Shown here: positions 15,875 to 64,000 of the stretch, piece after piece | Layout: each line of letters begins with the position of its first letter | Numbering within the stretch: position 1 is the stretch's first letter | Assembly: GCA_026636295.1 (NCBI GenBank) | Contig: CP089456.1 | Coordinates: forward strand, 620,001 to 684,000 | From: Medakamo hakoo | Lineage: Eukaryota > Chlorophyta > Trebouxiophyceae > Coccomyxaceae | Direction: 5' to 3' | Length of the DNA stretch: 64,000 nt | Made by a program: the position numbers and the translations under genes | The notes under the pieces: model-generated | Databases searched by the model: none | Seen by the model: the letters and a program-made list of their open reading frames with translations, nothing else | Told to the model about the DNA's origin: nothing

Positions 15875-18800
15875 TTACACAGCGACGGCCGCAGCGGTCG
15901 GCGCGGCGCCGGTGCCCACCCCTCCGCCACCGCCACCATCCTCTGCCGCGGCCTCGACTGGTGCGCTCGACAGGTATTCGAGCGTCCGCACATTTGCCGC
16001 CGCACCCGCGCCCAGGTCAGCCGCCATGGCTGACGCGGCAGCAGAGATGGCGCGTAAAGCGGGCGCAGTGACGGACCGTGGCGCGGCGCGGAGGGCACGG
16101 GCGTGGACGCAGAGCAGCGCCCGCGCCCAGGCCAGGCCGTGCTCGGCGTGGGGGACGCGCGGCAGGAGGCCGGCGAGCGCCGCCAGCACACCGGCCGCGC
16201 AGGCGGGGGGCAGCGCCCGGGCCGCCGCACCCACGTCCTCGGGAGCCGTGCCCAACAGCGCGGCTTCCAACAGGGCGGCGTCGCCCAGGCGCAGCGCCAG
16301 GCGCGCGGCGAGGACGGGGTTGCCGGCGGCCAGCGCGGCCCGTGCCGCGCCCGGCGTCACGTCCTCGCCCAGGTCGCCCGGGTCGAAGCGCGTGCCCGGG
16401 TCGTCGACGTACAGCAGGACGCCCTCGGTGGTGGCCGCAGCCAGGTGCCGGCCGAGCGGGCAGAGGGAGACGGCCCGGGTGGCGGGTTGGGGCGGGGCCG
16501 GCCGGCCGCCGCCGGCCGCGCCGACGCCGCCCCTCGTCCCGGGCAGGCCGGACGCGCCCGCCGCGCCGCCCGGCACGGACGCCGGCAACAGGCCGTCCTC
16601 ATCGTCACTGGCTCCGTCTGGCAGGCTGGCGCGCGGGCCGGCGTCGGTCGGGTGGCCCGACGTGTGGTGGGCGCCGGCCGCAGACCGCACGCCGCCGAGC
16701 GAGCGGTTGGTCGTCGTGACCAGCCGCCTCAGCAGGACGCGCTCTTCCGCATCGTACACGCACACGGCCGTCCCCGCCCCGCCTCCGACGAGGAAGGACC
16801 CATCGGCGGAGTAGGCCAGGGACGTGAAGGCGGCGGAAGCGGCCGCGTTAGCGGCGGAGCGCAGGTCGCCGGCCGGGCCCGCGCCCGCGCCCGCGAGCAC
16901 GTCGCGCCGCGCCTCGATCGTGCCCCGCAACACCGCGGCGCCCGTGTCCCACAGCGCGACGCACCCGTCCAGCGTGGACACGGCGAGCGTGTGCCCCGCC
17001 GGGTGCCAGGCCAGGGCCAGGACTTCGTGGGCGTGGGGCAGGGACTCCACGGCGCCCTTCCCCCCAAACACGTCCCAGAGCCGCACGGTCTTGTCCCAGG
17101 CGCCCGAGGCGAGCAGGGGGGAGCCGCCGCCAGCGCGCCCCGCGCCCGGGCCGGCGGCGTCTGCGGCGCCCAGGGACGCGCCGCCGGAGTTGGCGCCCGC
17201 CGCGGGCGAGAAGGCCAGGCAGGAGACGGGGCCCTCGTGGCCGGACAGGACGTCCAGGACGCGCGACGTGCGCACCGACCACACGTAGATCGACCAGCTG
17301 TCGAGCCCGCCCGCCGCGACGATGTCGCCGCCGGAGCCCGCGTCGGCGGCCACGCAGCCCAGCTGGGCGCGTTCGGGGGGGACGAGCGTGCGGAAGCAGC
17401 GGTACCGCGCCAGGTCCCAGGCGCGGACGGTGCCGTCGCGCGAGGCGGACAGCAGCGCGCCCGACGAGGGCAGGAAGGCGAGCCCGGTGATGGGCGCGGT
17501 GTGGCCGGGGGAGCGGCTGGCGGCGCCGCCGCTGCCGCCGCCTCCGTCGGTGGGAGCGGGCGCAGACGCGCCGGCGCCACCCAGCGTGACGTGGCAAAAG
17601 CCGGAGGCCACGCCCCACAGCTTGACTTTGGCGTCGTCGCCGCCCGTGGCCAGCAGCCCGCCGTCGGGCGAAAACGCGGCAGCGGCCGCCGCGTGCGCGT
17701 GGCCCTGCTGCCGCAGCACGTACGCCTCCGCCCGCCACTCCCAGGCGCACAGCTGGCCGTGCTGGGCCGCGCCCAAGGCCAGCCAATCCCCGCGGGCGTT
17801 GAAGGCCAGGGAGGAGAGCGGGCCCCGCGACGCAGACAGGGCGTGGATCGGCGCAAAGGACGGCAGCGCCCGCAGGTCGAACGCGCCGGAGGACAGCCCC
17901 GCGACGACCAGGCCCGCGCCCGCGTGGTGGGCGGCGCACGTCACGCGCGCCCCACGCTGGTTGAAAAAGTGTTTGGCCGCCAGGCGCCACCGGCCGCGGG
18001 CGTAGGCCCAGGCAGGGGAGGCCGGGGAAGGCGGGCTGGGCGGAGCAGCCCCCCCGCCCCCGCCGCCGCCGCCGCCTTCCTCACCCCAGCCGGGCAGGTC
18101 GCCGGACGTGCGGCCGGCCGCCTCGCCGTCTGGAGTGAACACCCAGGCAAAGAGCGCACCATCGCGGGAGACGGAGTAGAGCGTGGGCGCGGCAGCGCCC
18201 GGGTCGGCGCCCAACACCGCCGCGGCCGCGGCTTCGGCCGCGGCCCGCCCGGCTTCGCCCCCACTCCCGGCCGCCGTCCCGGCCCAAAACACGGCCACGG
18301 GCTCGTCCTTGTGCCCTGCGAGGACAGGGGGTTTAAAGCCGCCCTCTGGAGCCTGGTGTGCGGGGACCGGGTCGACGGACCAGACCCGGACGGTCAGGTC
18401 TTTGGAGCCGGCGGCCACCCAGGCCCCGTCGGGCGACCACGCCAGGCACGTGATGCCGCCCGACGCCTGGCCGAACGTGCGGTGCAGGGCGAGCGGCGCG
18501 ACGGTCTTCGCGCGCGGCGGCGCCGTCCACACTTGGACGAGCCTGCCGACCGCGACGGCCAGGTACCGGCCGTCGGGCGAGAAGGACGCGGCGGGGACGG
18601 GGCCGCCGAACGAGGCGTGGCCGAGCAGCGCGCGCGCGGTCAGGGCAATGATGAGGGCCCGGCCCGTCGCATCGATGGCGACCAGCGTGCGCCCAGCCGG
18701 GTCGATGGCCAGCGTGCGCGTTTGGTGGAGGGTTTCAAAGGGCAGGGTCGTGGACGTGGACGCGACGAGGTCGACCTGGTGCGTGCGTGCGTGTGTGTTC

Positions 18801-19114
18801 AAGTGCGGAGGGGGGGAGGGGGGTGATGGTGGAGGGGCGGCCTAGCCGTCGGCGGGCGCCCCATGCGGCCGCGTTTTCGGTTCACAAGGACGAGCTCGGC
18901 GGCCATCCACCCCTCGTGCTGAGTAGCCACACCCGCCTTGGTGAGCTGGGTGGGTGCGGGCGGGGCAGGCGGCCGGCTGGCCCGTGGCCAAAGGGGTGCG
19001 GCGGCTCACCTGCGTCACTCTGTTTCCGACGGGCGACAGCAGTGTGTCGCCGTGCAAGACGAGCGAGCCGCCGCGGTAGGGCGCGCCCAGCAAGTTCTTG
19101 AAGGTGAAGTTCAT
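15875..19114 (-). CDS. PWP2: PWP2 (UTP1), WD-repeat protein of the small-subunit processome
   Basis: Exons 19114-19010 and 18775-15875 (1001 residues). The N-terminus NFTFKNLLGAPYRGGS, then GNRVTQVDLV and TSTTLPFET, is diagnostic for PWP2. About 14 WD units follow (for example LAWSPDGAWVAAGSKDLTVRVW, LAFNARGDWLALG, FSPDGGLLATGGDDAKVKLW, LAFLPSSGALLSASRDGTVRAWD), forming two propellers, with Gly/Ser-rich loop insertions. A DDEDGLLPASVPGG loop precedes the C-terminal UTP12-type helical domain (AEHGLAWARALLCVHARAL, TLEYL). PWP2 is part of UTP-B, which binds U3 snoRNP and nascent pre-rRNA in the nucleolus. The intron is 234 nt and ends in CGTGCACCAG-like sequence. Somewhat longer than typical (about 920), because of the loops. 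Confidence 0.95.
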
Positions 19115-23705: not shown

Positions 23706-24849
23706 ATGGCGGACACCGCCGGCCCCTCGACCGCCGTCGTGCCGTCCGTCGATCCGGCCCGCCACCCGTCCGGCATCGTGCCCACGCTCCAAAACGTGGT
23801 CGCGACCGTCAACCTGGACTGCAAGCTGGACCTGAAGAACATAGCCCTGCACGCGCGTAACGCCGAGTACAATCCCAAGGTGCGGTGGGGTGCGGAGGGA
23901 GGCGTGGAGCGCGTCCTGCTGGGCGCACGCACGAGCTTTCGTTTTTTGTCTTTGCTCACATTCTTCAATGCCCTTCGACCGTCACACAGCGTTTCGCGGC
24001 CGTCATCATGCGCATCCGCGACCCCAAGACGACGGCCTTGATCTTTGCGTCCGGCAAGATGGTACGTTGTGAGGGCGGGGACGGAAGAGCGAGAAGGAAG
24101 GGGCCGCGCTGCTGTTTCCTTTCCAACCCGACCTCCCGCCCACTGTCACTGTCTCCATCCATCCCATTCCATCCATTCACGACCGTCACCATGCCCTCAC
24201 CCTCACCAGGTCGTCACGGGCGCCAAGTCCGAGGACGCGGCCCGCCACGCGGCCCGGCGGGTGAGTTGTGGTTGTTGGTGTCATGCGCTTTGCACGCCCG
24301 GGCCCCGCCCGCCCTCTCTTCTCCTCTCCCATCCCCCAGTACCACCCACGCCCCCCCCCCCCCCCCTCTCTTGTTTCATTTCAGTACGCCAAAATCGTCT
24401 CGAAACTGGGCTTCCCCGCCGGCTTCAAAGACTTCAAAGTCCAAAACATGGTCGGCTCCGCGGACGTCCGCTTCCCCGTGCGGCTGGAAGGCCTGGCGTA
24501 CGCGCACGGCTTCTTCTGCTCGTACGAGCCCGAACTCTTCCCGGGCCTCATCTACCGCATGAAGGCGCCCAAGGTCGTCCTGCTCGTCTTCGTGTCGGGC
24601 AAGGTCGTCCTGACGGGCGCCAAGGCCCGGGACGACATCTACGCCGCGTTCGAGGCCATCTACCCGGTCCTGCAAGAGTTTCGGAAGGGCGACGCGGCGC
24701 CGCACCCGGGCGGCGGCGGGGGTGCCGCGGTCGAGCCGCCGCCCGCCCTGCCCGCGCCTGCGGCCGGCGGCGGTGGCGGTGGCGGCGGCGTCGCCCCGCT
24801 GCCCGTCGCCGGTATCGGCGCGCCTGCGCCCGTCCTGCCGCGGCGGTGA
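23706..24849 (+). CDS. TBP: TATA-binding protein (complete copy)
   Basis: Four exons: 23706-23879, 23990-24061, 24210-24260 and 24385-24849 (253 residues). TBP forms the saddle that bends the TATA element and nucleates TFIID, TFIIIB and SL1. First repeat: [57 protein letters not shown]. Second repeat: [68 protein letters not shown]. The conserved core is intact. Unlike most TBPs, which end a few residues after EFRK, this one continues for about 52 residues of Gly/Pro/Ala ([19 protein letters not shown] and so on) to a terminal PRR. The last exon from 24533 onward is repeated twice more downstream as part of the 2,066-bp triplication, but the first three exons occur once only. Confidence 0.97.
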
Positions 24850-25199
24850 ATGCGCGGCTCGCGCGCGTATTTTCCTTTTTTTTTGTTCGCTCTGCCTGCC
24901 TTCCCGACCTCCCCTTCCCCTCCTCCAGCGCCCTTTTTTTCTGTGTGCCCTTTTTTTAGATCCGCCAGCGTTTTCCATTTATGACCAACAATCCCCCCAA
25001 AAACAATGAATGCGAGTGGCCATGTGTGCGTGTGTGCTTGTGCTGTGTGCTGGCGCTCCGCCTCCGCGTGCGCGTGGGGAGAGAGCGAGTGTGTGAAACA
25101 ACAAAAAAAACGATTGAAGATGAAAAAAAACAGAGAACACAAGTGCTTTGAGTGCAAGGAATTTTCACGGCAACACTCACCCCCAACCAACACACACTC
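24850..25199. other. 3' spacer between TBP and the fusion-gene end (repeated at 26916-27265 and 28982-29331)
   Basis: About 350 bp with T-runs, an A-run and a GTGTGTGC stretch; no gene recognised. In unit 3 it separates a TBP fragment from the stop of the intact fusion gene. Confidence 0.6.
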
Positions 25200-26598
25200 T
25201 CACGACCACCCGCCCGCCCGTGGCGACGCCGGCGGCCTGCCCGGCGTGCCGGACGCTGCCGACGCGCCAGCAGAAGGCCACGGGCGGAAATAGTCGCCCA
25301 GCAGGCAGGGCCGGCACCGTTGCCCGCCACACAGCAGCAGCCGCGCCGCCCGGCCTGGCGGGGGCAGGATGATGGGCGGCGTCCCTGGCGGGCCCAGCGC
25401 GGGCGCGGGCGACGCGGACCGGCGCGGCGACGCCCCGAAACCGGCCGCGCTCAGGACGGGCAGCGGGCGGGCGACACCATTCTGGGCGCCCCCGCCCCCG
25501 CCCGTGCCGTGCAACAGGGCCACAAGCAGGTCCAGGCCGTCGGCCAGGCGCGGGCCCGGGCGGGCGAGCAGCGCCCGGTCGACCAGGAAGACGCGGCCAG
25601 CACGCACGGCGGGCAGGGACCAAAAGCCGGGCAGCGCGGCAAGGCGGTCGAGGCCGGGCGGGTGGGTGAGCGGGCCGGTGGAGCCGCCCGCGCGCCCGGC
25701 CGCCGCCAAAACCAAGACGTCCGGCGCGCCCTTGCGCACTTCCTCCCAGACGGAGGGCAGGGGTGGAGGCAAGGAGGCCTGGGTCGTGGCAGCGGCGGCG
25801 CCGGGCGGCGCGGGCGCGGCCGGCCGGCCGGGCGGCTCGCCAGAGTTCATCCCCGCAAGCGCCGCCGGCGCGTCGCCCGGCTCCACGCAGCCGGCCAGCA
25901 CGTCCACCCCGCCCGCCAGGGACACGAGTTCGGGGACCCAGCCGCCTCCCGCGGACAGCGGACGGCCGTCGCCGTCGCCCAGACTGACCAGGACGGCCAC
26001 GCGCGGGCGGCGGGGCTGGCCTGCGGCCGCGCGCGCGGCCGCCCGCAGGCGCGCCCGGAACGCAGACACGGCCGCGCCCGCGGCGGCAGGGTGGACGCCC
26101 GCCGCGGCTGCGACGGCCAGCAAGGCGTCGCCCACGTCTGCCAGTGTGCGTGGCGCCAGAGCCAGGACGCGGGCGCCGTGGGCGGCCAGGCCCGCGGCGG
26201 AGACGGCGGCCGCCGCGGCAGGCGCGGGCACGCCGGGGCCGGCGGGGTCCATGCCCGCCAGCGCCGCTGCCGCGCTGCCGCCGCCCGCGGCGATGACCAG
26301 GCCAGGCCTCTCTGACGCGAGCCAGGACCCGTCGACGGCGGCCGCCACGCCAGGCGCGGGCGCGGTCGCAGCAATCGGGGGGTCGGCGCCGCCGCCGCCC
26401 AGCCCCGGCGCCGAGCCGCCCGCCACGACGCCGCACGCCCGCCCGCCCAAACCCAGGGCCGCCACGCACTCGGCTGCCAGCGGGGACAGGCACGCAATGC
26501 CATCGCCCGCCGTGCGCCAGGCCGCCACGTTTTGCAGGGCGGCGGGCGAGGAGGGAGTGGGGAGGGTGGTCGCCAGCAGTGGTTGAGGGGGCGGCGGC
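25200..26598 (-). pseudogene. headless C-terminal fragment of the CobB-BtuF fusion gene (unit 1)
   Basis: Encodes the same BtuF-like C-terminal region as the intact gene, down to the same TGA, but lacks everything upstream of the breakpoint: the first exon, the cobyrinate-synthase and GATase domains and most of the linker. On the minus strand the open frame continues up into antisense TBP sequence of unit 2 and reaches an ATG at 27044, giving an unplanned 614-codon chimeric frame. No promoter of its own is expected. Confidence 0.85.
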
Positions 26599-26915
26599 AA
26601 CTCTTCCCGGGCCTCATCTACCGCATGAAGGCGCCCAAGGTCGTCCTGCTCGTCTTCGTGTCGGGCAAGGTCGTCCTGACGGGCGCCAAGGCCCGGGACG
26701 ACATCTACGCCGCGTTCGAGGCCATCTACCCGGTCCTGCAAGAGTTTCGGAAGGGCGACGCGGCGCCGCACCCGGGCGGCGGCGGGGGTGCCGCGGTCGA
26801 GCCGCCGCCCGCCCTGCCCGCGCCTGCGGCCGGCGGCGGTGGCGGTGGCGGCGGCGTCGCCCCGCTGCCCGTCGCCGGTATCGGCGCGCCTGCGCCCGTC
26901 CTGCCGCGGCGGTGA
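26599..26915 (+). pseudogene. TBP 3' fragment (unit 2)
   Basis: The last 104 codons of TBP, from [11 protein letters not shown] to the Gly-rich tail and stop, joined upstream to antisense fusion-gene sequence. It covers only the end of the second TBP repeat, so it cannot make a DNA-binding saddle. Confidence 0.88.
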
Positions 26916-27265
26916 ATGCGCGGCTCGCGCGCGTATTTTCCTTTTTTTTTGTTCGCTCTGCCTGCCTTCCCGACCTCCCCTTCCCCTCCTCCAGCGCCCT
27001 TTTTTTCTGTGTGCCCTTTTTTTAGATCCGCCAGCGTTTTCCATTTATGACCAACAATCCCCCCAAAAACAATGAATGCGAGTGGCCATGTGTGCGTGTG
27101 TGCTTGTGCTGTGTGCTGGCGCTCCGCCTCCGCGTGCGCGTGGGGAGAGAGCGAGTGTGTGAAACAACAAAAAAAACGATTGAAGATGAAAAAAAACAGA
27201 GAACACAAGTGCTTTGAGTGCAAGGAATTTTCACGGCAACACTCACCCCCAACCAACACACACTC

Positions 27266-28664
27266 TCACGACCACCCGCCCGCCCGTGGCGACGCCGGCG
27301 GCCTGCCCGGCGTGCCGGACGCTGCCGACGCGCCAGCAGAAGGCCACGGGCGGAAATAGTCGCCCAGCAGGCAGGGCCGGCACCGTTGCCCGCCACACAG
27401 CAGCAGCCGCGCCGCCCGGCCTGGCGGGGGCAGGATGATGGGCGGCGTCCCTGGCGGGCCCAGCGCGGGCGCGGGCGACGCGGACCGGCGCGGCGACGCC
27501 CCGAAACCGGCCGCGCTCAGGACGGGCAGCGGGCGGGCGACACCATTCTGGGCGCCCCCGCCCCCGCCCGTGCCGTGCAACAGGGCCACAAGCAGGTCCA
27601 GGCCGTCGGCCAGGCGCGGGCCCGGGCGGGCGAGCAGCGCCCGGTCGACCAGGAAGACGCGGCCAGCACGCACGGCGGGCAGGGACCAAAAGCCGGGCAG
27701 CGCGGCAAGGCGGTCGAGGCCGGGCGGGTGGGTGAGCGGGCCGGTGGAGCCGCCCGCGCGCCCGGCCGCCGCCAAAACCAAGACGTCCGGCGCGCCCTTG
27801 CGCACTTCCTCCCAGACGGAGGGCAGGGGTGGAGGCAAGGAGGCCTGGGTCGTGGCAGCGGCGGCGCCGGGCGGCGCGGGCGCGGCCGGCCGGCCGGGCG
27901 GCTCGCCAGAGTTCATCCCCGCAAGCGCCGCCGGCGCGTCGCCCGGCTCCACGCAGCCGGCCAGCACGTCCACCCCGCCCGCCAGGGACACGAGTTCGGG
28001 GACCCAGCCGCCTCCCGCGGACAGCGGACGGCCGTCGCCGTCGCCCAGACTGACCAGGACGGCCACGCGCGGGCGGCGGGGCTGGCCTGCGGCCGCGCGC
28101 GCGGCCGCCCGCAGGCGCGCCCGGAACGCAGACACGGCCGCGCCCGCGGCGGCAGGGTGGACGCCCGCCGCGGCTGCGACGGCCAGCAAGGCGTCGCCCA
28201 CGTCTGCCAGTGTGCGTGGCGCCAGAGCCAGGACGCGGGCGCCGTGGGCGGCCAGGCCCGCGGCGGAGACGGCGGCCGCCGCGGCAGGCGCGGGCACGCC
28301 GGGGCCGGCGGGGTCCATGCCCGCCAGCGCCGCTGCCGCGCTGCCGCCGCCCGCGGCGATGACCAGGCCAGGCCTCTCTGACGCGAGCCAGGACCCGTCG
28401 ACGGCGGCCGCCACGCCAGGCGCGGGCGCGGTCGCAGCAATCGGGGGGTCGGCGCCGCCGCCGCCCAGCCCCGGCGCCGAGCCGCCCGCCACGACGCCGC
28501 ACGCCCGCCCGCCCAAACCCAGGGCCGCCACGCACTCGGCTGCCAGCGGGGACAGGCACGCAATGCCATCGCCCGCCGTGCGCCAGGCCGCCACGTTTTG
28601 CAGGGCGGCGGGCGAGGAGGGAGTGGGGAGGGTGGTCGCCAGCAGTGGTTGAGGGGGCGGCGGC
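27266..28664 (-). pseudogene. headless C-terminal fragment of the CobB-BtuF fusion gene (unit 2)
   Basis: Second copy of the same fragment, again with a chimeric minus-strand open frame, starting at ATG 29110 in unit 3 and ending at the normal stop. Confidence 0.85.
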
Positions 28665-28981
28665 AACTCTTCCCGGGCCTCATCTACCGCATGAAGGCGC
28701 CCAAGGTCGTCCTGCTCGTCTTCGTGTCGGGCAAGGTCGTCCTGACGGGCGCCAAGGCCCGGGACGACATCTACGCCGCGTTCGAGGCCATCTACCCGGT
28801 CCTGCAAGAGTTTCGGAAGGGCGACGCGGCGCCGCACCCGGGCGGCGGCGGGGGTGCCGCGGTCGAGCCGCCGCCCGCCCTGCCCGCGCCTGCGGCCGGC
28901 GGCGGTGGCGGTGGCGGCGGCGTCGCCCCGCTGCCCGTCGCCGGTATCGGCGCGCCTGCGCCCGTCCTGCCGCGGCGGTGA
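28665..28981 (+). pseudogene. TBP 3' fragment (unit 3)
   Basis: Second extra copy of the TBP C-terminal 104 codons, with the same upstream junction as in unit 2. Confidence 0.88.
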
Positions 28982-29331
28982 ATGCGCGGCTCGCGCGCGT
29001 ATTTTCCTTTTTTTTTGTTCGCTCTGCCTGCCTTCCCGACCTCCCCTTCCCCTCCTCCAGCGCCCTTTTTTTCTGTGTGCCCTTTTTTTAGATCCGCCAG
29101 CGTTTTCCATTTATGACCAACAATCCCCCCAAAAACAATGAATGCGAGTGGCCATGTGTGCGTGTGTGCTTGTGCTGTGTGCTGGCGCTCCGCCTCCGCG
29201 TGCGCGTGGGGAGAGAGCGAGTGTGTGAAACAACAAAAAAAACGATTGAAGATGAAAAAAAACAGAGAACACAAGTGCTTTGAGTGCAAGGAATTTTCAC
29301 GGCAACACTCACCCCCAACCAACACACACTC

Positions 29332-32300
29332 TCACGACCACCCGCCCGCCCGTGGCGACGCCGGCGGCCTGCCCGGCGTGCCGGACGCTGCCGACGCGCC
29401 AGCAGAAGGCCACGGGCGGAAATAGTCGCCCAGCAGGCAGGGCCGGCACCGTTGCCCGCCACACAGCAGCAGCCGCGCCGCCCGGCCTGGCGGGGGCAGG
29501 ATGATGGGCGGCGTCCCTGGCGGGCCCAGCGCGGGCGCGGGCGACGCGGACCGGCGCGGCGACGCCCCGAAACCGGCCGCGCTCAGGACGGGCAGCGGGC
29601 GGGCGACACCATTCTGGGCGCCCCCGCCCCCGCCCGTGCCGTGCAACAGGGCCACAAGCAGGTCCAGGCCGTCGGCCAGGCGCGGGCCCGGGCGGGCGAG
29701 CAGCGCCCGGTCGACCAGGAAGACGCGGCCAGCACGCACGGCGGGCAGGGACCAAAAGCCGGGCAGCGCGGCAAGGCGGTCGAGGCCGGGCGGGTGGGTG
29801 AGCGGGCCGGTGGAGCCGCCCGCGCGCCCGGCCGCCGCCAAAACCAAGACGTCCGGCGCGCCCTTGCGCACTTCCTCCCAGACGGAGGGCAGGGGTGGAG
29901 GCAAGGAGGCCTGGGTCGTGGCAGCGGCGGCGCCGGGCGGCGCGGGCGCGGCCGGCCGGCCGGGCGGCTCGCCAGAGTTCATCCCCGCAAGCGCCGCCGG
30001 CGCGTCGCCCGGCTCCACGCAGCCGGCCAGCACGTCCACCCCGCCCGCCAGGGACACGAGTTCGGGGACCCAGCCGCCTCCCGCGGACAGCGGACGGCCG
30101 TCGCCGTCGCCCAGACTGACCAGGACGGCCACGCGCGGGCGGCGGGGCTGGCCTGCGGCCGCGCGCGCGGCCGCCCGCAGGCGCGCCCGGAACGCAGACA
30201 CGGCCGCGCCCGCGGCGGCAGGGTGGACGCCCGCCGCGGCTGCGACGGCCAGCAAGGCGTCGCCCACGTCTGCCAGTGTGCGTGGCGCCAGAGCCAGGAC
30301 GCGGGCGCCGTGGGCGGCCAGGCCCGCGGCGGAGACGGCGGCCGCCGCGGCAGGCGCGGGCACGCCGGGGCCGGCGGGGTCCATGCCCGCCAGCGCCGCT
30401 GCCGCGCTGCCGCCGCCCGCGGCGATGACCAGGCCAGGCCTCTCTGACGCGAGCCAGGACCCGTCGACGGCGGCCGCCACGCCAGGCGCGGGCGCGGTCG
30501 CAGCAATCGGGGGGTCGGCGCCGCCGCCGCCCAGCCCCGGCGCCGAGCCGCCCGCCACGACGCCGCACGCCCGCCCGCCCAAACCCAGGGCCGCCACGCA
30601 CTCGGCTGCCAGCGGGGACAGGCACGCAATGCCATCGCCCGCCGTGCGCCAGGCCGCCACGTTTTGCAGGGCGGCGGGCGAGGAGGGAGTGGGGAGGGTG
30701 GTCGCCAGCAGTGGTTGAGGGGGCGGCGGCGGCGGGGGCGCGAGCGGGTGCTGCTGCTGCTGCCCGGCGGGCATCCCGCCAGCCGACGCAGCCAGATCCG
30801 CCGGGCTGGGGAAGTGGAAGGACGGCGGGCGGGGAGGCGGCGGCGGGTGGTGGTGTGCGACGGCCCCCCTTGCAGACCGGCCGCCTCCGCTGCCGCTGCC
30901 ACGCCGGCCACCCGGGCCGTCGCCCGACGACGGCGCGCGGGCTAGAGTGGTGACAGGTGACGAGCCGGATGGGGCGCCACCGCTACCGCCCCCTCCGGCA
31001 GGACGTGGCTTCGCCCGGCCGGACGCGGGCGGCGGCGGCGACCACGGCGCTTCGCCGCCAGAGGCCGCCGCCGCGCACGCCGGGCAGGGGCAGCCGGGGA
31101 CGGGCGCACTCCCGCCAAAGCCGGCCAGGGAGCCGGATGAAGCGGTGCGGGCGTGTCCCGCAGCGTGCTGGGCGTGGTGGACGGACCCACCGCGCGCCGG
31201 GCTGCCGCCCGAGCCGGCCTCCGAGCCAGGGTGCAGCGGCGGCGGCGGGGCGGGGCGCGTCGGGTGGAACGGCGAGGCGCCGCCCGCCGCCAGGAGGTTG
31301 GGCACGGACGCGGACGGCGGCAGGTGGCCGTACCCGCCTGCCGCGCCTAGAACCGAGGGCGGAAAGGCGGCGTGGGCGTGGGGCGGGCCGAGCCGGGCGG
31401 CCGCCGCGGCCGCGGCGGCCGCGGCCGCAAACGCGGACAGGCCGTCCCCCACCGGCCGGTCGGGCGACGCGGCCACGGACAGCGACCGGGGCATGCCACC
31501 ACTGCCCGCCCCGCTTTGAGGCGAGGCCAACAGGGCCGGTGACAAGCCGCCGGGCGGGGACCAGCCGGGCGGACCGCGGGGCGCGGGCGCGGCGTGGCCT
31601 TCGCCGACCGAGGCGCGGCGGGCGTGGCCGGCGCGCGCGCGGCCGCTGCCGCCCGCCGCCTTGGCCGCCCGCGCGTGCGCGGCGTGCGTCGCCGCCGCCA
31701 CCCAGGCCGGGTCCGGGACGGCAGCGGCCGCAGCAGCAGCCGCGGCGGCGCCCGCGGCCGCGGCGTCGACGGGCGCCAGGGCGCACGCCACCCAGGCGGC
31801 CACCAGGTCGGGCGACGCGCCCAGGTCCAAGCCGACGGCCGACGCGAGGGCCCGCCGCCGGGCGTACCCCTCCGGCACGGCGGACGCGCCGGGCGCGGCG
31901 CGGCGGGCGGTGTAGGCCGCGGACCAGGCGGGGCGGCGGGCGCGGGGGGCGCCGGTGAGGGCGGAGGGGCTGCCGTGGCCGGAGGAGGTCGGCGTGCGCG
32001 GCCCGCCGTCGCCGTCGCCGTCGCTGCTCCCCGCGTCAACGCCGCTGGCGACCGACCGACCGCCGTCGTCGTCCGTGCCGTCATCCACCCCAGCCGACCC
32101 CAGCGGGCTGGACGGCCCGGCCAGGTCCGCGCCGACGGGCGACTCGACCAACAACTCCACGCGCCGGGTGGCCGCGCCGCGGCCGACCAGACCCGCCGGC
32201 CACACTCCGCGCCAGGCGCCCGTGGTGACGACTTCGACGGGCGACGGCCGGCGCCGGCTCAGGTAGGTGGACGGAGCGAAGGGACCGTCCCGGCCGGCGC

Positions 32301-34081
32301 CGCCGCCGGACCCGCGCCACCGCGCGCGGAAGGGGAACAGGCCCGCCATCGGGGCGGCCGCCGCCCCCGCGCCCGCGATGCCGCCGCGCCCGCCGCCGCC
32401 GCACGCGAGGCTCTCGCCCGCGTACGCGCACCCTTCCCCGCACGCCCAGACCGCGCCGCCCGCGGACGCAAAGGCGGCCAGCGCGGCTCGCGCCGCCGCA
32501 TTGGCGGCCAGGGCCGCGGCGTGGCGGGCGGGCGCGCCGCAGGGGCCGATGACGACGCCCGAGACGCCGGGCGGCAGGCCGCCGTCGGCGAGCGGCGACC
32601 AGGGGACGAGCGCGCACCCCGCCGCCTCCAGGGCGGCGGCGTCGCCGGGGCCGGACGCCCAAAACGCCGCGTCGGCCGCGACGGCGACCTTGAGCGGGGT
32701 GGAGGACGGCGGCGGGCGCGGCGGCGGGGGCGCGGGCGGCGGCGGTGGGACGGCCGCCCTGCGCGCTGCGGCCAGCACCGCGCCCAAGTCTGCGTGCATG
32801 GCCGTCAGCGCGCCCGCGCCCGCGGCGCGGGCGGCAAGGGCGGTGGCCGCAGGACTGCCGGGCGCGGGCGGCGGGGCGTCGTAGGCCAGGGCGGGAGTGG
32901 AGGCTTTGCCGCGCCCGCCGCCGCCCGGCGCGCACCGGGCGGGGCCGAGACCGGCGGCCGGGTCGTCCGGCAGCGCGCCCAGCACGGGCGCGCCGACGCG
33001 CGCGGCCGCCAGCTCGCCCGCCAGCCATTTGCCTGCCTGTGGCGTGGGGACACGCGCCAGGAGGACGCCGGCCAAGAAGGCGCGGGACGGGGAGGGCGGG
33101 GAGGGCGGCGGCGGGTGCGACGCCCACGCCTCTGCCAGCAAGCCGGCGCAGCCTTTCACGAGGGCCGCGACGCCGCGGGGCGCGCCCGCCAGAGGGCCGC
33201 CGCCGCCCGCGCCGTCGACGACCAAGACGAGTGGGGCGCCCAGCAGGGCGGCCAGCTGGGCTGGGGAGCCGTCGGCCGCCGCGTCGAAGGCGGCGTCGGC
33301 CGCGGCGGCCGCGGCGGCCACGGCGGCCGCTTTCCGCCCACCGCCTCCCGGCGTGGCGGCCCCGGTCTTGGCGGGCGAAGGGTCGGTGGACGACGCGTCG
33401 TCCGCCATGGACGAGCCCGCGGACCCAAAGGCGGCTGACCCACCGGGCGTGGACGCGTCGCGTGGGGAGAGCGCCGAGGCGGCCGACACGGGGGAGGCCG
33501 CGCCGGACGTGCCTGCCCGGCGTGCTGCTGCTGCCGCCGCCTCGGCCTCCCGCTTCCACGCGGCTGGCAGGGACAGCGCCGGCGCCAGGCTAGCTTCCCG
33601 GGTTTCGTCCGCCCCACACCGCCCACGCGGGCCGGGGAGCGCGCCGTCCAGCGCTCCCCCGCTGCCGTCGACGACGCACACGCCCGCGCCCTTTGCTCCA
33701 TCCCACAGGCTGGCCAGGACGGCGGCCCGGCCGCGCGTCCAGGCGTCGAGTGGCGGGCCGACGGGCCGGCCTGTGGCGGCGAACAATACAGCCGCGGCGT
33801 GCGGGTCCGGGCCGGTGGTGAAGGCCTGGACGACGTGGCCGCGGGACCTGCGCAGATGGACGGGGGGTGGATGAGGGGCGGGGGGCGAGGCGACGGTTGG
33901 GAGGGCGCGAGCGCGAATGCACCGTTCCCTCATTTCTTTACCTCAACGCCGCGCACAGCCCGGCAGTGACGGACGTGCACCCCGCGCCCGGCGTCACACC
34001 CGCCACTACCAGGACGGCGGGCGAAGGCGGCTGGGCCGGCGCGCCGCCCGCGGGCGCGCCGCCCTTTTTTCGGTGGGGCAT
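29332..34081 (-). CDS. cobyrinate a,c-diamide synthase-like (CobB/CbiA) fused to a BtuF/TroA-like binding domain
   Basis: Exons 34081-33942 and 33847-29332 (1551 residues). Residues 22-420 match the CobB/CbiA ATPase domain: AGVTPGAGCTSVTAGLCAAL, a GPDPHAAAVLFAATGRP segment corresponding to GPDYIDPxxxxxATGRP, CVVDGSGGALDG, LGAPLVLVVDG and LAGVLLARV. Residues about 431-640 match the class I GATase half (LKVAVAADAAFW, ALVPWSPLADGGLPPGV, AVWACGEGCAYAGESL), retaining a Cys at the nucleophile position. A 450-residue Pro/Gly/His-rich linker follows, then from about 1108 a BtuF/TroA-like domain ([54 protein letters not shown]). CobB amidates cobyrinic acid with ATP and glutamine; BtuF binds B12. The Walker A Lys is replaced by Cys35, so the ATPase activity is doubtful. 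A role in corrinoid binding is inference. Confidence 0.82.
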
Positions 34082-37500: not shown

Positions 37501-39453
37501 GGCGTGCCCCACGACCGCAGCATCATGAGCAGGGCGCACTCCGTCCGGTTGCCGACGAAGCCGACGCCGTCGGACGACGTGTTGAGGGCGGCGGCCGCGG
37601 CGGCCACGCCTTCCGCGCCGCCAGCCTTTTTGGCCTTCTTCTTCTGCTTGCCGTCGGCCGGGCCGGCCGGCTCGGGCGCGGCCGGCGCGGCTTTGGGCTC
37701 GAGCAAGAAGGCCTTGGAATTCAGGGCGCAGTTCAGTTCCAGGTGGTTGGACAGGTCCGGGTCCAGCGTGGACTTGTGCGGCGGCGGCCGGACGAGCGCC
37801 GCGTCCTTGCCGCCCAGGCGGGCGGCGACGACGGTCATGCGGTTTTCGGTGAGCGTGCCCGTCTTGTCGGAGCAGATGGCCGTCGCGCCGCCCATGGTCT
37901 CGCACGCGGCCAGGACGCGCACGAAGTTGTTGTCCTTCATCATCTTGCGCATGGAGTAGGCCAGCGAGATGGTGACGGCCAGCGGCAGGCCCTCCGGCAC
38001 GGCGACGACGATGATGGTCACCGCGAAAATGAAGAAGCGGAGGGGGCCCTCCGCAAACTGTTTGACGGGGAAGCCCCGGTTTTCGACGATCCACCGGATG
38101 AGCAGGACGACGAAGCACAGGACGCCGACGCCCAGGCCGACCTTGCCCACGGCGGCGGCCAGGACGGTCAGGGCTTCTTGCAGGGGGGTGTCGCCCGTCT
38201 CGCCGACGACCATCGCCATCGTGCGGCCCCACTCCGAGTTGACGCCGACCGCCGTCACCAGCAGCGCGCCCGACCCTTCCGTGACCTGCGTCCCGCACCG
38301 CACCCAGGGCGCGCCGTCCACCGATTTCTTGATGGGGTCGGACTCGCCGGTGAGCGAGGCTTCGTCGATGACCAGGCCCTGGGCCGCCAGCAAGACGCCG
38401 TCGGCCGCGACCTTGTCGCCGGTGATGAGGCGCACCACGTCGCCGACGACCAGGTCGGTGTTGAGGACCAGCTGTTCGACGCCGCCGCGGACGACCTTGA
38501 TTTCGACGCGCTCCTTCTGGGCGTTGAGCTTGCGGAACTGCAGGTCCTTTTGGTAGTCGTTGCCCGACGCGACGAGCGAGACGACCAGGACGGCGATCCA
38601 AATGGCGACGCCCTCGGACCAGGCGGACTGGGCGCGTTCTTCGGGGATGGCGACACCCAGGACGGTGGAGATCTGGGGGGGAGGGAGTTGGGCGGGTGGG
38701 GGAGGGCGTGGGGAGGGGACGTGTGTGTGAGGTGGGTGGGGATGGGATGGATGGGATGGAGCAGAGCAGAGCAGAGAGCAAGGCTGGCGACCAGAGGCGC
38801 GGCCGCCCCACACACACACACACGACGCCGCCACAACGTACCAGGGCCGCGCCCATCAGCAGGACCAGCGTCGGGTCCTTCAAGTTCTCGAAGAACAGGC
38901 GGAAGAAGGACTTGGACTTGGCGGTCTTGAACGTGTTGGGGCCGAAGGCCTCGCGGCGGGACGCCACGTCCGCGGCCAGGTCGGCGCTCGTGCGCGGCGC
39001 CCCGTGCGGTCCGCCGCCGCCATCGCCGACGCCGTTGGTCAGGGAGGAGCCGAGGGCCATGGCCAGGCCGCCCGGGCCGCCCAAGTCGGCGAGGGCGACG
39101 TCGTCTTTTTCCTGTTATGGGGGGGGTGGGGGTGGGGGGTGGGGAGGGGACGTGAGGGGGCGGGGGGCCTGGACTGTCCGCCTCCCTCTCCAACGCGCAC
39201 GCACACACGACCGCGCGGGCGAGCACAAAACCGCGCGCGAGAGTGAACGCGGGCCGCCAGCCCCTTCCCTGCCCCCCTCCACCACGCTCTCTGCGTCACG
39301 CACCTCCGTCAGGCGGGCCAGCTCGCGTGGCGAGACCGTGAAGCCGGGCGGCGGCGTGTCCGACAGGGCCGGGCCATCGCGTGCGGCCGCAGCCGCGCCG
39401 ACAGACACGCCGGGCGCGGCGCCGCCGTTAGGCGCAGCGCCCTTTTTCGGCAT
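34526..39453 (-). CDS. type IIB (PMCA/ACA-like) Ca2+-transporting P-type ATPase
   Basis: Six exons: 39453-39304, 39111-38842, 38672-36531, 36387-35444, 35190-34816 and 34694-34526 (1349 residues; phases close exactly). N-terminal FTVSPRELARLTE, then LADLGGPGGLAMAL, is typical of type IIB. Catalytic parts: the TGES-type actuator loop (SLTGESDPIKK), phosphorylation site CSDKTGTLTENRM, hinge GDGTNDAPALKESDVG, and VTGDNIHTAQHIA. Membrane helices include IWIAVLVVSLVAS, FIFAVTIIVVAVPEGLPLA, VNFVALVVAFVAAVT and FFWVMGITILCQLVIML. Between M7 (GLYQLFWLFLIIYG) and M8 an insertion of about 140 residues holds eight Cys. After M10 comes a Gly/Pro-rich tail with SRRVRALTLAVRAG and a basic CFRARDRRRRAAM, possible calmodulin-binding or autoinhibitory segments. 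It pumps Ca2+ out of the cytosol. The last two small exons are set by phase and splice sites. Confidence 0.93.
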
Positions 39454-54786: not shown

Positions 54787-55537
54787 ATGTCTCACTGCAA
54801 GTTCGAACGTGAGTCTCCTCTGCGCACGCGCGGGGTATTGGAGGGAGCGGGTGGGCGCGGCTGGCGGGAGGCCGGGGCCAAACGCAAGCAGACGGCGGCC
54901 CGGCGCGCCTTCCAATCAGACAGTCGCGCCAGTGGCGCCCAGGCCGCCGCAGTGAGGCTGGCGCCGCAGGCGACGGGCGCTCCGATGCCTGATCCAGAGT
55001 CTGGACGGTGGCCGGGCGATGGCGTGGCGAGGCACGCCGCCACGGCCGGCCCCGCGCCTGAGCCTTTGGCCGTCGTCTCGCGAAAGAACGGCTTGGCTTG
55101 TCCGTCGCGGCCCTCCTGGCGCCAGGGCCCGTGCCCTGCCGCGCTTCCGCCGCTTGCATGTAACGCACAGGCGTGTCTAGAACGCCGTTGCGAGGTTGGG
55201 AGTGGGGGTAGGAGCCTCCATGACTTCGGCCCTCGCGCGCGACCAAATGCGGAGCGATCGTCGCCCGGGCCTGTGGCGGCTCGCTCCTGCGGCGGCCACC
55301 CCAGCCGCACCCACGCGCCACCAACCGCTTGCCTGTGTGTTTTGAATGCACGCTGGGTCCTTGTTGTACCCGCTTGCGGCGGCAAAAGGGCTGATGAGCG
55401 ATCCCAGCCCCTGGCGCTGGCCTGAGGCGGCTTGCTTCTGCGCGCGCCGCCCACAGCTGAGAGACGCCGCCGAAAGGAAACCCACCCCCGCCCTCGACAC
55501 TGGGTCCGCTCACGCACTCCCACTCCCCCCACACACG

Positions 55538-55636
<99 letters not shown>

Positions 55637-62981: not shown

Positions 62982-64000
62982 ATGACGCCTGTGCAGCGTG
63001 GTCGCAGCGGACACGTCCGCAGTGCCAGCGCCGCCGGCCCGCAAGCAGGCCCGAGCGACGCATGCGCTGCGACCACCCCGCCCGATGGCCTGTCTGCGTA
63101 TGAAGCCGCCCGGGCCGCCCGGATCGCCCAGAACGCAGCCCGCCTGGCCGCGCTGGGCATCCCAGGGGCGGCACAGGCGATGGCGCCTGCCCCGCCGCGC
63201 CCGCGGCCGCCCGCGGTGCGCCGACCCCGGCCCACGGCTCCACCTTTGTCACCTCGAGCCACGCGCGCGCTCCGCCCGCGCCCGCCGCCCCGCGCCCTCC
63301 CAGCGCCGTCGGCCGCCGAACTGCGCCACCGCCGGCCCGCGACGGCCTGGTCACCCTCGGACCTGGACCCCATCCCACGCACGGTCGTGGGCCCCTTCAC
63401 CACCCGGTGCGGGACGCTGACGATCCACTCGCTCGGCCGGCTCGTGCACGCGTCGCCGGACGAGTCGCTGTGCGCCTCCACCTGGTGGTCGTCAGCGGGC
63501 GCCCGCTTTCGGCACGCGTACACGGCCGGGTACAGCGCGACGCGGCACCGGGCTTTAGGAGGGCGCGACTTCAAGTGTGAGGTCGCACTCTGCGAAGGCA
63601 CGGGCGCACCCGTGTTTCGGGTGACCGACCTCGACCGGGGGCGGGGTTTCACGGGGCCGAGCCCGACACGCCCCTGGACGGCACACTGCATCCAAACTGG
63701 TACGGGCGTGCGCGTGTCAGGTCCGCTGTTTTACGGGTTCACGCACGTCCTGGTGCAGGCCGCGCTGTCGGCGATGGTGATGGGAGGTGGCGGGGCAGGG
63801 CAGCCACCGCCGCCCGCGCTGTCGGCGATGGTGATGGGAGGTGGCGGGGCAGGGCAGCCACCGCCGCCCGCGCTGTCGGCGATGGTGATGGGAGGTGGCG
63901 GGGCAGGGCAGCCACCGCCGCCCGCACTGCGGTCTCCCAGCCTGGGGAGTGGAGGCGTCGCGGAGCCCTCGCCCTCTCCCTCCCCTCCACACCAGCAGCG
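62982..64000 (+). CDS. FYRN/FYRC-domain chromatin protein, 3' end outside window
   Basis: An open frame from ATG 62982 to the end of the window (339 codons, no stop), so the C-terminus is missing. An N-terminal helix, LSAYEAARAARIAQNAARLA, matches a motif common in algal proteins (YExxRxxNIxxNxxxLxxLG). After a Pro/Arg linker, a FYRN/FYRC module starts near residue 127: CGTLTIHSLGRLVH, then AYTAGYSATRH, FKCEVALCEGTGAPVFRVTD, FTGPSPTRPWT, ISGPLFYGFTH-like VSGPLFYGFTHVLVQAALS. This module occurs in TBRG1, MLL/trithorax and plant ATX proteins, and may bind chromatin or partner proteins. Residues about 261-314 are three copies of an 18-residue unit from a 54-bp repeat. Confidence 0.83.
   Translation, partial: MTPVQRGRSGHVRSASAAGPQAGPSDACAATTPPDGLSAYEAARAARIAQNAARLAALGIPGAAQAMAPAPPRPRPPAVRRPRPTAPPLSPRATRALRPRPPPRALPAPSAAELRHRRPATAWSPSDLDPIPRTVVGPFTTRCGTLTIHSLGRLVHASPDESLCASTWWSSAGARFRHAYTAGYSATRHRALGGRDFKCEVALCEGTGAPVFRVTDLDRGRGFTGPSPTRPWTAHCIQTGTGVRVSGPLFYGFTHVLVQAALSAMVMGGGGAGQPPPPALSAMVMGGGGAGQPPPPALSAMVMGGGGAGQPPPPALRSPSLGSGGVAEPSPSPSPPHQQ
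63762..63923 (+). repeat. 54-bp minisatellite, 3 copies, in the FYR gene
   Basis: Three tandem units starting at 63762, 63816 and 63870; each encodes ALSAMVMGGGGAGQPPPP. A partial fourth unit begins at 63924. No difference was seen between the units. Confidence 0.93.

Follow-up and report, generated by a model that had tools for sequence, protein, structure and literature searches.

Introduction

Non-recurrent tandem duplications and triplications with blunt junctions constitute a class of CNV breakpoint for which the closest described figures come from Drosophila: In the available text of PMC4056370, 223 of 644 CNVs (35%) are blunt, CNV breakpoints are enriched in non-B DNA, and the median sizes of the events are 32 and 43 bp depending on the type of breakpoint. 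Among the polarised insertions of that set, tandem duplications account for 2 of 50, seven further putative ones having been filtered out.

Here, we analyze a stretch of 64,000 nucleotides (the window, to which all coordinates refer) from Medakamo hakoo, an ultrasmall green alga. The published genome of M. hakoo 311 comprises 18 contigs (2 organellar) with 15.81 Mb and 72.7% G+C, and of the organisms compared there, M. hakoo has the highest frequency of predicted quadruplexes (PMC9871001, available text). A first-pass annotation of the window had described an identical triplication that joins the 3' halves of a TBP gene and of a convergent gene. Neither paper on this alga touches on it in the text available to us: The terms tandem, duplicat- and TBP are absent from that of PMC9871001, as are duplicat-, copy number, structural variant and tandem from the main text of PMC12868012.

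Results and Discussion

Structure of the Repeat Array

The stretch 24533-30730 is made up entirely of a 2,066-bp unit that occurs three times head to tail, with 0 differences between the copies; a separate repeat search yields the same spacing. When the window is compared with itself at an offset of 2066, the run of identity measures exactly 4,132 bases (24533-28664), which corresponds to 3.000 copies. As the run equals exactly two periods, the junctions must be clean: Filler or microhomology would make it differ from two periods. Direct comparison of the breakpoints likewise yields 0 bases of microhomology leftward, 0 rightward, and no filler. The initial description of the repeat and its blunt junctions was thus correct to the base; the joined gene portions are indeed 3' parts, but not quite halves (about 41% of TBP and about 30% of the convergent gene). 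The array is composed as follows:

24533..26598, + strand: repeat unit 1; left edge in TBP exon 4 (codon 149), taken to be an ancestral edge
26599..28664, + strand: repeat unit 2; same sequence as unit 1, with a derived junction at either edge
28665..30730, + strand: repeat unit 3; identical, with a right edge taken to be the ancestral continuation into the convergent gene
26583..26613, + strand: derived junction 26598/26599; 31-base pattern with 2 occurrences in the genome
28649..28679, + strand: derived junction 28664/28665; same sequence as junction 26598/26599

An exact repeat of this kind is unexplainable by chance. We searched the genome (15,638,232 bases in 16 contigs; the window itself has 73.5% G+C) with the unit, the junction, and both flanks. 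Three of the 37 unit matches listed, a count that is a lower bound, are full-length and all lie in the array, while the remaining 34 are short, with identities of 69-90%. The 31-base junction pattern has two matches, both inside the array. The left 2-kb flank matches only itself; the right 2-kb flank has one full match, namely itself, in addition to 78 partial ones, the longest of which spans about 440 bp at 67%. Consequently, this search found no second full-length copy of either flank. Adjacent head-to-tail copies without a single difference, enclosed by apparently ancestral outer edges and separated by derived inner junctions, are what characterizes a recent tandem segmental duplication. 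The array is absent from the output of Tandem Repeats Finder, whose longest period is 500, and Rfam yields 0 matches in the window at gathering scores, so that its edges are not explained by any listed RNA family.

We also surveyed a contiguous block of 264 kb around the window (1.7% of the genome). Besides the array, it contains a single self-match of at least 100 bp and at least 90% identity, a 54-bp minisatellite (window 63760-63929, 3.1 copies, 99% matches). By direct count, 317 repeated 40-mer positions lie outside the array, all within ten 100-bp bins. A (CA)n run occupies window positions 55530-55633 (52 copies, 96% matches). A 21-bp minisatellite at 38677 resembled the unit end and was discarded as a candidate: Within the block, the 18-mer compared occurs only in the three units, and its central 14-mer has one further occurrence, on the other strand. 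In viral contigs, the TBP exon-4 frame found no tblastn relative among 12 pattern matches and the array junction was not found, in searches from which records of this genome were possibly excluded.

Genes at the Array Edges

Each outer edge of the array lies within a gene, and pieces of these genes recur inside it:

23706..24849, + strand: complete TBP gene, predicted; exons 23706-23879, 23990-24061, 24210-24260, and 24385-24849; 253 aa
26532..26915, + strand: truncated TBP copy; covers only positions 34-85 of the 85-position profile, without exons 1-3 and without the exon-4 acceptor
28598-28981, + strand: second truncated TBP copy, as at 26532..26915
29332..33933, - strand: complete convergent gene; single open frame of 1,533 aa

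The splice model of TBP was built by eye and by script and is predicted from the sequence alone; its introns measure 110, 148, and 124 bp and are all of the GT..AG type. The second TBP repeat lies complete in exon 4 (PF00352, 110.9 bits versus a cut-off of 22.9). The first is detected piecewise, with exon 1 covering profile positions 2-37 and exon 2 positions 36-61, each above the cut-off, while its end in exon 3 follows from the splice model only. The gene into which the left edge of unit 1 falls is therefore a two-repeat TBP, in line with its original identification. For the open frame that holds exon 4, the best solved relative is the plant TBP 1vto_A (E 7e-60), and the alignment is collinear and unbroken across the breakpoint codon. 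With TBP complete across it, the left edge of the array is, by this model, ancestral. Following the conserved EFRK core end, the protein carries a C-terminal tail of 53 Gly/Ala/Pro-rich residues (window 24688-24849, + strand).

The unit starts at codon 149, 148 bp into exon 4 (exon start 24385), and thus contains TBP from codon 149 onward. Since the exon-4 acceptor hence lies outside the unit, units 2 and 3 hold an acceptor-less fragment that covers positions 34-85 of one repeat only and does not amount to a two-repeat TBP. All five TBP matches in the genome are located at the array locus.

For the convergent gene, we collected nine related proteins, seven of which were aligned and six scanned with Pfam; all nine were compared with the chimeric frame described below. 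The proposed fusion of a CobB/CobQ-like amidotransferase part with a B12/iron periplasmic-binding-like part is recognizable as a layout, with both parts below the Pfam cut-off in the window protein: The best stretch of the former (residues 415-514) reaches 17.1 of 27 bits, that of the latter (Peripla_BP_2, residues 1209-1303) 21.5 of 27.5 bits. P0008 (SM000072S21159) passes the cut-off with both domains and P0002 with the second. The same layout is also found in Raphidocelis subcapitata (P0004) and in P0008, and the convergent gene groups with this family of green algae and their relatives. The nucleotide-binding motif GTHSGVGKT is present in P0008 and P0003 but cannot be made out in the window protein, P0001, or P0002; from this, the enzyme activity of the first domain may have been lost in the lineage of the window protein.

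The right breakpoint is located in a poly-proline linker, two bases past residue 1067, and leaves the last ~465 of 1,533 residues inside the unit. In the MAFFT alignment, the identity of the window protein amounts to 67% with P0001, 51% with P0002, and 33% with P0008. The best local BLASTP alignments span only 30% (P0001) and 26% (P0002) of it because long low-complexity stretches intervene. The metagenomic relative P0001 is collinear with the window protein over the right breakpoint, although the glutamine/proline stretch located there is largely missing in P0001. This continuity identifies the copies in units 1 and 2 as the truncated ones, and with the convergent gene complete and collinear with P0001, the right edge, too, is by comparison ancestral. 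Both genes thus survive as had been proposed, by virtue of N-terminal parts that lie outside unit 1 and unit 3, respectively: The four TBP exons read through the left edge and the 1,533-aa frame reads through the right one.

We directly observe an exact repeat, identical junctions, outer edges that continue into intact genes, and no second full flank copy. From this we infer the presence of the array in cells, the succession of events, and the absence of a function: The array is likely a real and evolutionarily young tandem triplication in the nuclear genome without a function of its own.

Real Array or Assembly Artefact

The most probable alternative, which we nevertheless consider unlikely, is an assembly artefact, in which the assembler would either have tripled a single true copy or have assigned a wrong copy number to a true duplication. 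Perfect identity of the copies speaks for such an error, and some assemblies contain many false duplications (PMC9516828, available text). They are, however, mainly divergent haplotypes or accompanied by border gaps in that account, while neither the window nor the 264-kb block contains an N, and hence no gap separates the copies. Moreover, the junction sites share neither microhomology nor notable similarity, which leaves an overlap assembler nothing to join by, and the block harbors no second array of this kind. Missed SMRTbell adapters produce inverted repeats, not direct ones.

The published assembly method also makes an error unlikely: According to the available text of PMC9871001, M. hakoo 311 was sequenced on a PacBio RS II with a BluePippin cut-off of 15 kb and assembled with HGAP 3 at 246.8x, and the method section contains no mention of whole-genome amplification. 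For assumed uniform read lengths, from which the actual ones may differ, we computed that the array plus 500 bp on each side would be spanned by about 25 reads if all measured 8 kb, by about 69 at 10 kb, and by about 99 at 12 kb, whereas none would span it with such anchors at 7 kb. As a 15-kb size cut is probably long enough for an array of 6.2 kb, a real triplication is favoured over an assembly error. The copy number of three is the least secure figure and may be incorrect even for a genuine duplication. Read depth would have to be judged with care in this respect: A threefold depth over the unit is expected only on a one-copy reference, while on the three-copy assembly each copy should show about 1x.

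Age and Homogenisation

The absence of differences had been taken to imply a very recent event. To translate it into an age, we used mutation rates from the available text of PMC6604790, 4.79e-10 per site and generation for Ostreococcus tauri and 1.01e-9 for Picochlorum costavermella. Assuming a star phylogeny without conversion, 0 differences in 3 x 2,066 bases yield 95% upper bounds of about 1.0 million and 0.48 million generations, respectively. "Recent" is therefore right, but in a looser sense than first worded, and an origin in culture is not required.

An old array held identical by gene conversion, or by repeated contraction and expansion, would look the same in one respect, as identity by itself cannot tell youth from homogenisation. 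Yet youth suffices, given that 0 differences are compatible with 0.5-1.0 million generations, and the array contains no diverged unit, no edge decay, and no partial copy. We regard long-term homogenisation as improbable.

Chimeric Frames and Possible Function

A chimeric open frame runs across each derived junction:

25200..27044, - strand: chimeric open frame of 614 aa over the first junction
27266-29110, - strand: second chimeric open frame of 614 aa, as at 25200..27044

These frames are the only potentially new product we see. Each consists of a leader of about 148 residues antisense to the end of the TBP fragment (in unit 2 for the first frame), followed by the ~465 C-terminal residues encoded by the convergent gene. 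One could therefore imagine that the array was selected, either because the chimeric frames are expressed or because antisense or read-through RNA lowers TBP output. The right breakpoint does lie in the linker ahead of the periplasmic-binding-like part, which the 614-aa frames retain behind an ATG, and two metagenomic proteins, P0005 (649 aa) and P0006 (598 aa), have the periplasmic-binding domain as their sole Pfam match, though they are possibly incomplete predictions. A protein search with one of the frames returned five proteins that cover 40-58% of it, all with a periplasmic-binding domain. Residues 1-152, which comprise the leader, are matched by none of the nine relatives compared, and the truncated TBP copies possess neither the exon-4 acceptor nor the first repeat. 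Furthermore, this G+C-rich window contains 18 ORFs of at least 614 aa, several of which overlap on opposite strands (e.g., 15875-18802 and 16103-18826), so that the openness of the chimeric frames is no evidence of function. Selection for the array is on these grounds highly improbable. Very little credence can likewise be given to the birth of a gene of near-zero age, in which the periplasmic-binding-like part would have been freed twice behind an antisense-TBP leader, with transcripts affecting TBP or cobalamin/iron handling. TGTAA is the usual polyadenylation word of green algae; it occurs on neither strand of the array, and thus no transcript end is predicted from that word.

The event, if real, had also been called neutral for both genes. 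This is true but automatic: When L-U-R turns into L-U-U-U-R, an intact L|U edge and an intact U|R edge are always left. Any tandem duplication retains one intact gene per outer edge, and the survival of TBP and the convergent gene is consequently a matter of geometry rather than evidence of selection.

Proposed Origin

For a young tandem triplication, we propose the following course: A break or stalled fork would have arisen at the right edge, where the convergent gene encodes its G-rich poly-proline linker, and this site would have been joined back, without microhomology, to the site in TBP exon 4, 2,066 bp away (the left edge), through end joining or a template switch. Two copies in head-to-tail order would have resulted. 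The third copy could then have originated from homologous unequal exchange between the identical copies or from the same replication event going through another round. The 3.000 copies and two identical, filler-less junctions are what a single illegitimate joining with subsequent homologous amplification would produce; two separate joinings at the same bases are implausible. The junctions hence suggest that a single illegitimate joining created the duplication and that homologous exchange or continued replication added the third copy.

The lack of microhomology fits end joining without discriminating power: In 50,000 random draws of two sites in this DNA at a distance of 2,066 bp, 47.5% show none, which is the commonest outcome. 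Homology-driven joining was rejected, as the breakpoint contexts rank at the 20th percentile for direct and at the 1st percentile for inverted similarity. The G-quadruplex score at the right breakpoint reaches a maximum of 2.04 (93rd percentile of the 264-kb block), while the left breakpoint has no quadruplex signal (17th percentile). With only a moderately high value on the right and a low one on the left, the fragile-site step is the weak part of the proposed course; a fragile right edge is plausible. A 12-bp palindrome (24518-24529) adjoins the left edge, from which we do not argue because such palindromes occur about once per 627 bp.

Conclusion

If real, the locus is a clean example of a tandem amplification with blunt junctions that can be dated, in a green alga whose genome is very small and rich in G-quadruplexes; as it may be unstable, it would also be useful for measuring contraction and expansion. 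Annotators should not count the two truncated TBP pieces of this genome as extra TBP genes. Our understanding of TBP or of tandem duplication is left unchanged by the array.

Compared with known systems, the array resembles the false duplications of PMC9516828 in that these, too, can place copies of gene pieces next to each other; it differs from them, as far as the available text describes them, because for the most part they are divergent haplotypes that show abnormal depth or have gaps beside them, while the copies here are identical and ungapped. It also resembles non-recurrent blunt-junction tandem duplications and triplications, with which it shares the head-to-tail order, the blunt junctions, and the lack of long homology at the edges. 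Within this class, it departs from the Drosophila CNVs in the available text of PMC4056370 by having three copies rather than two and a unit of 2,066 bp, the Drosophila events being far smaller. The array is probably an ordinary recent tandem triplication.
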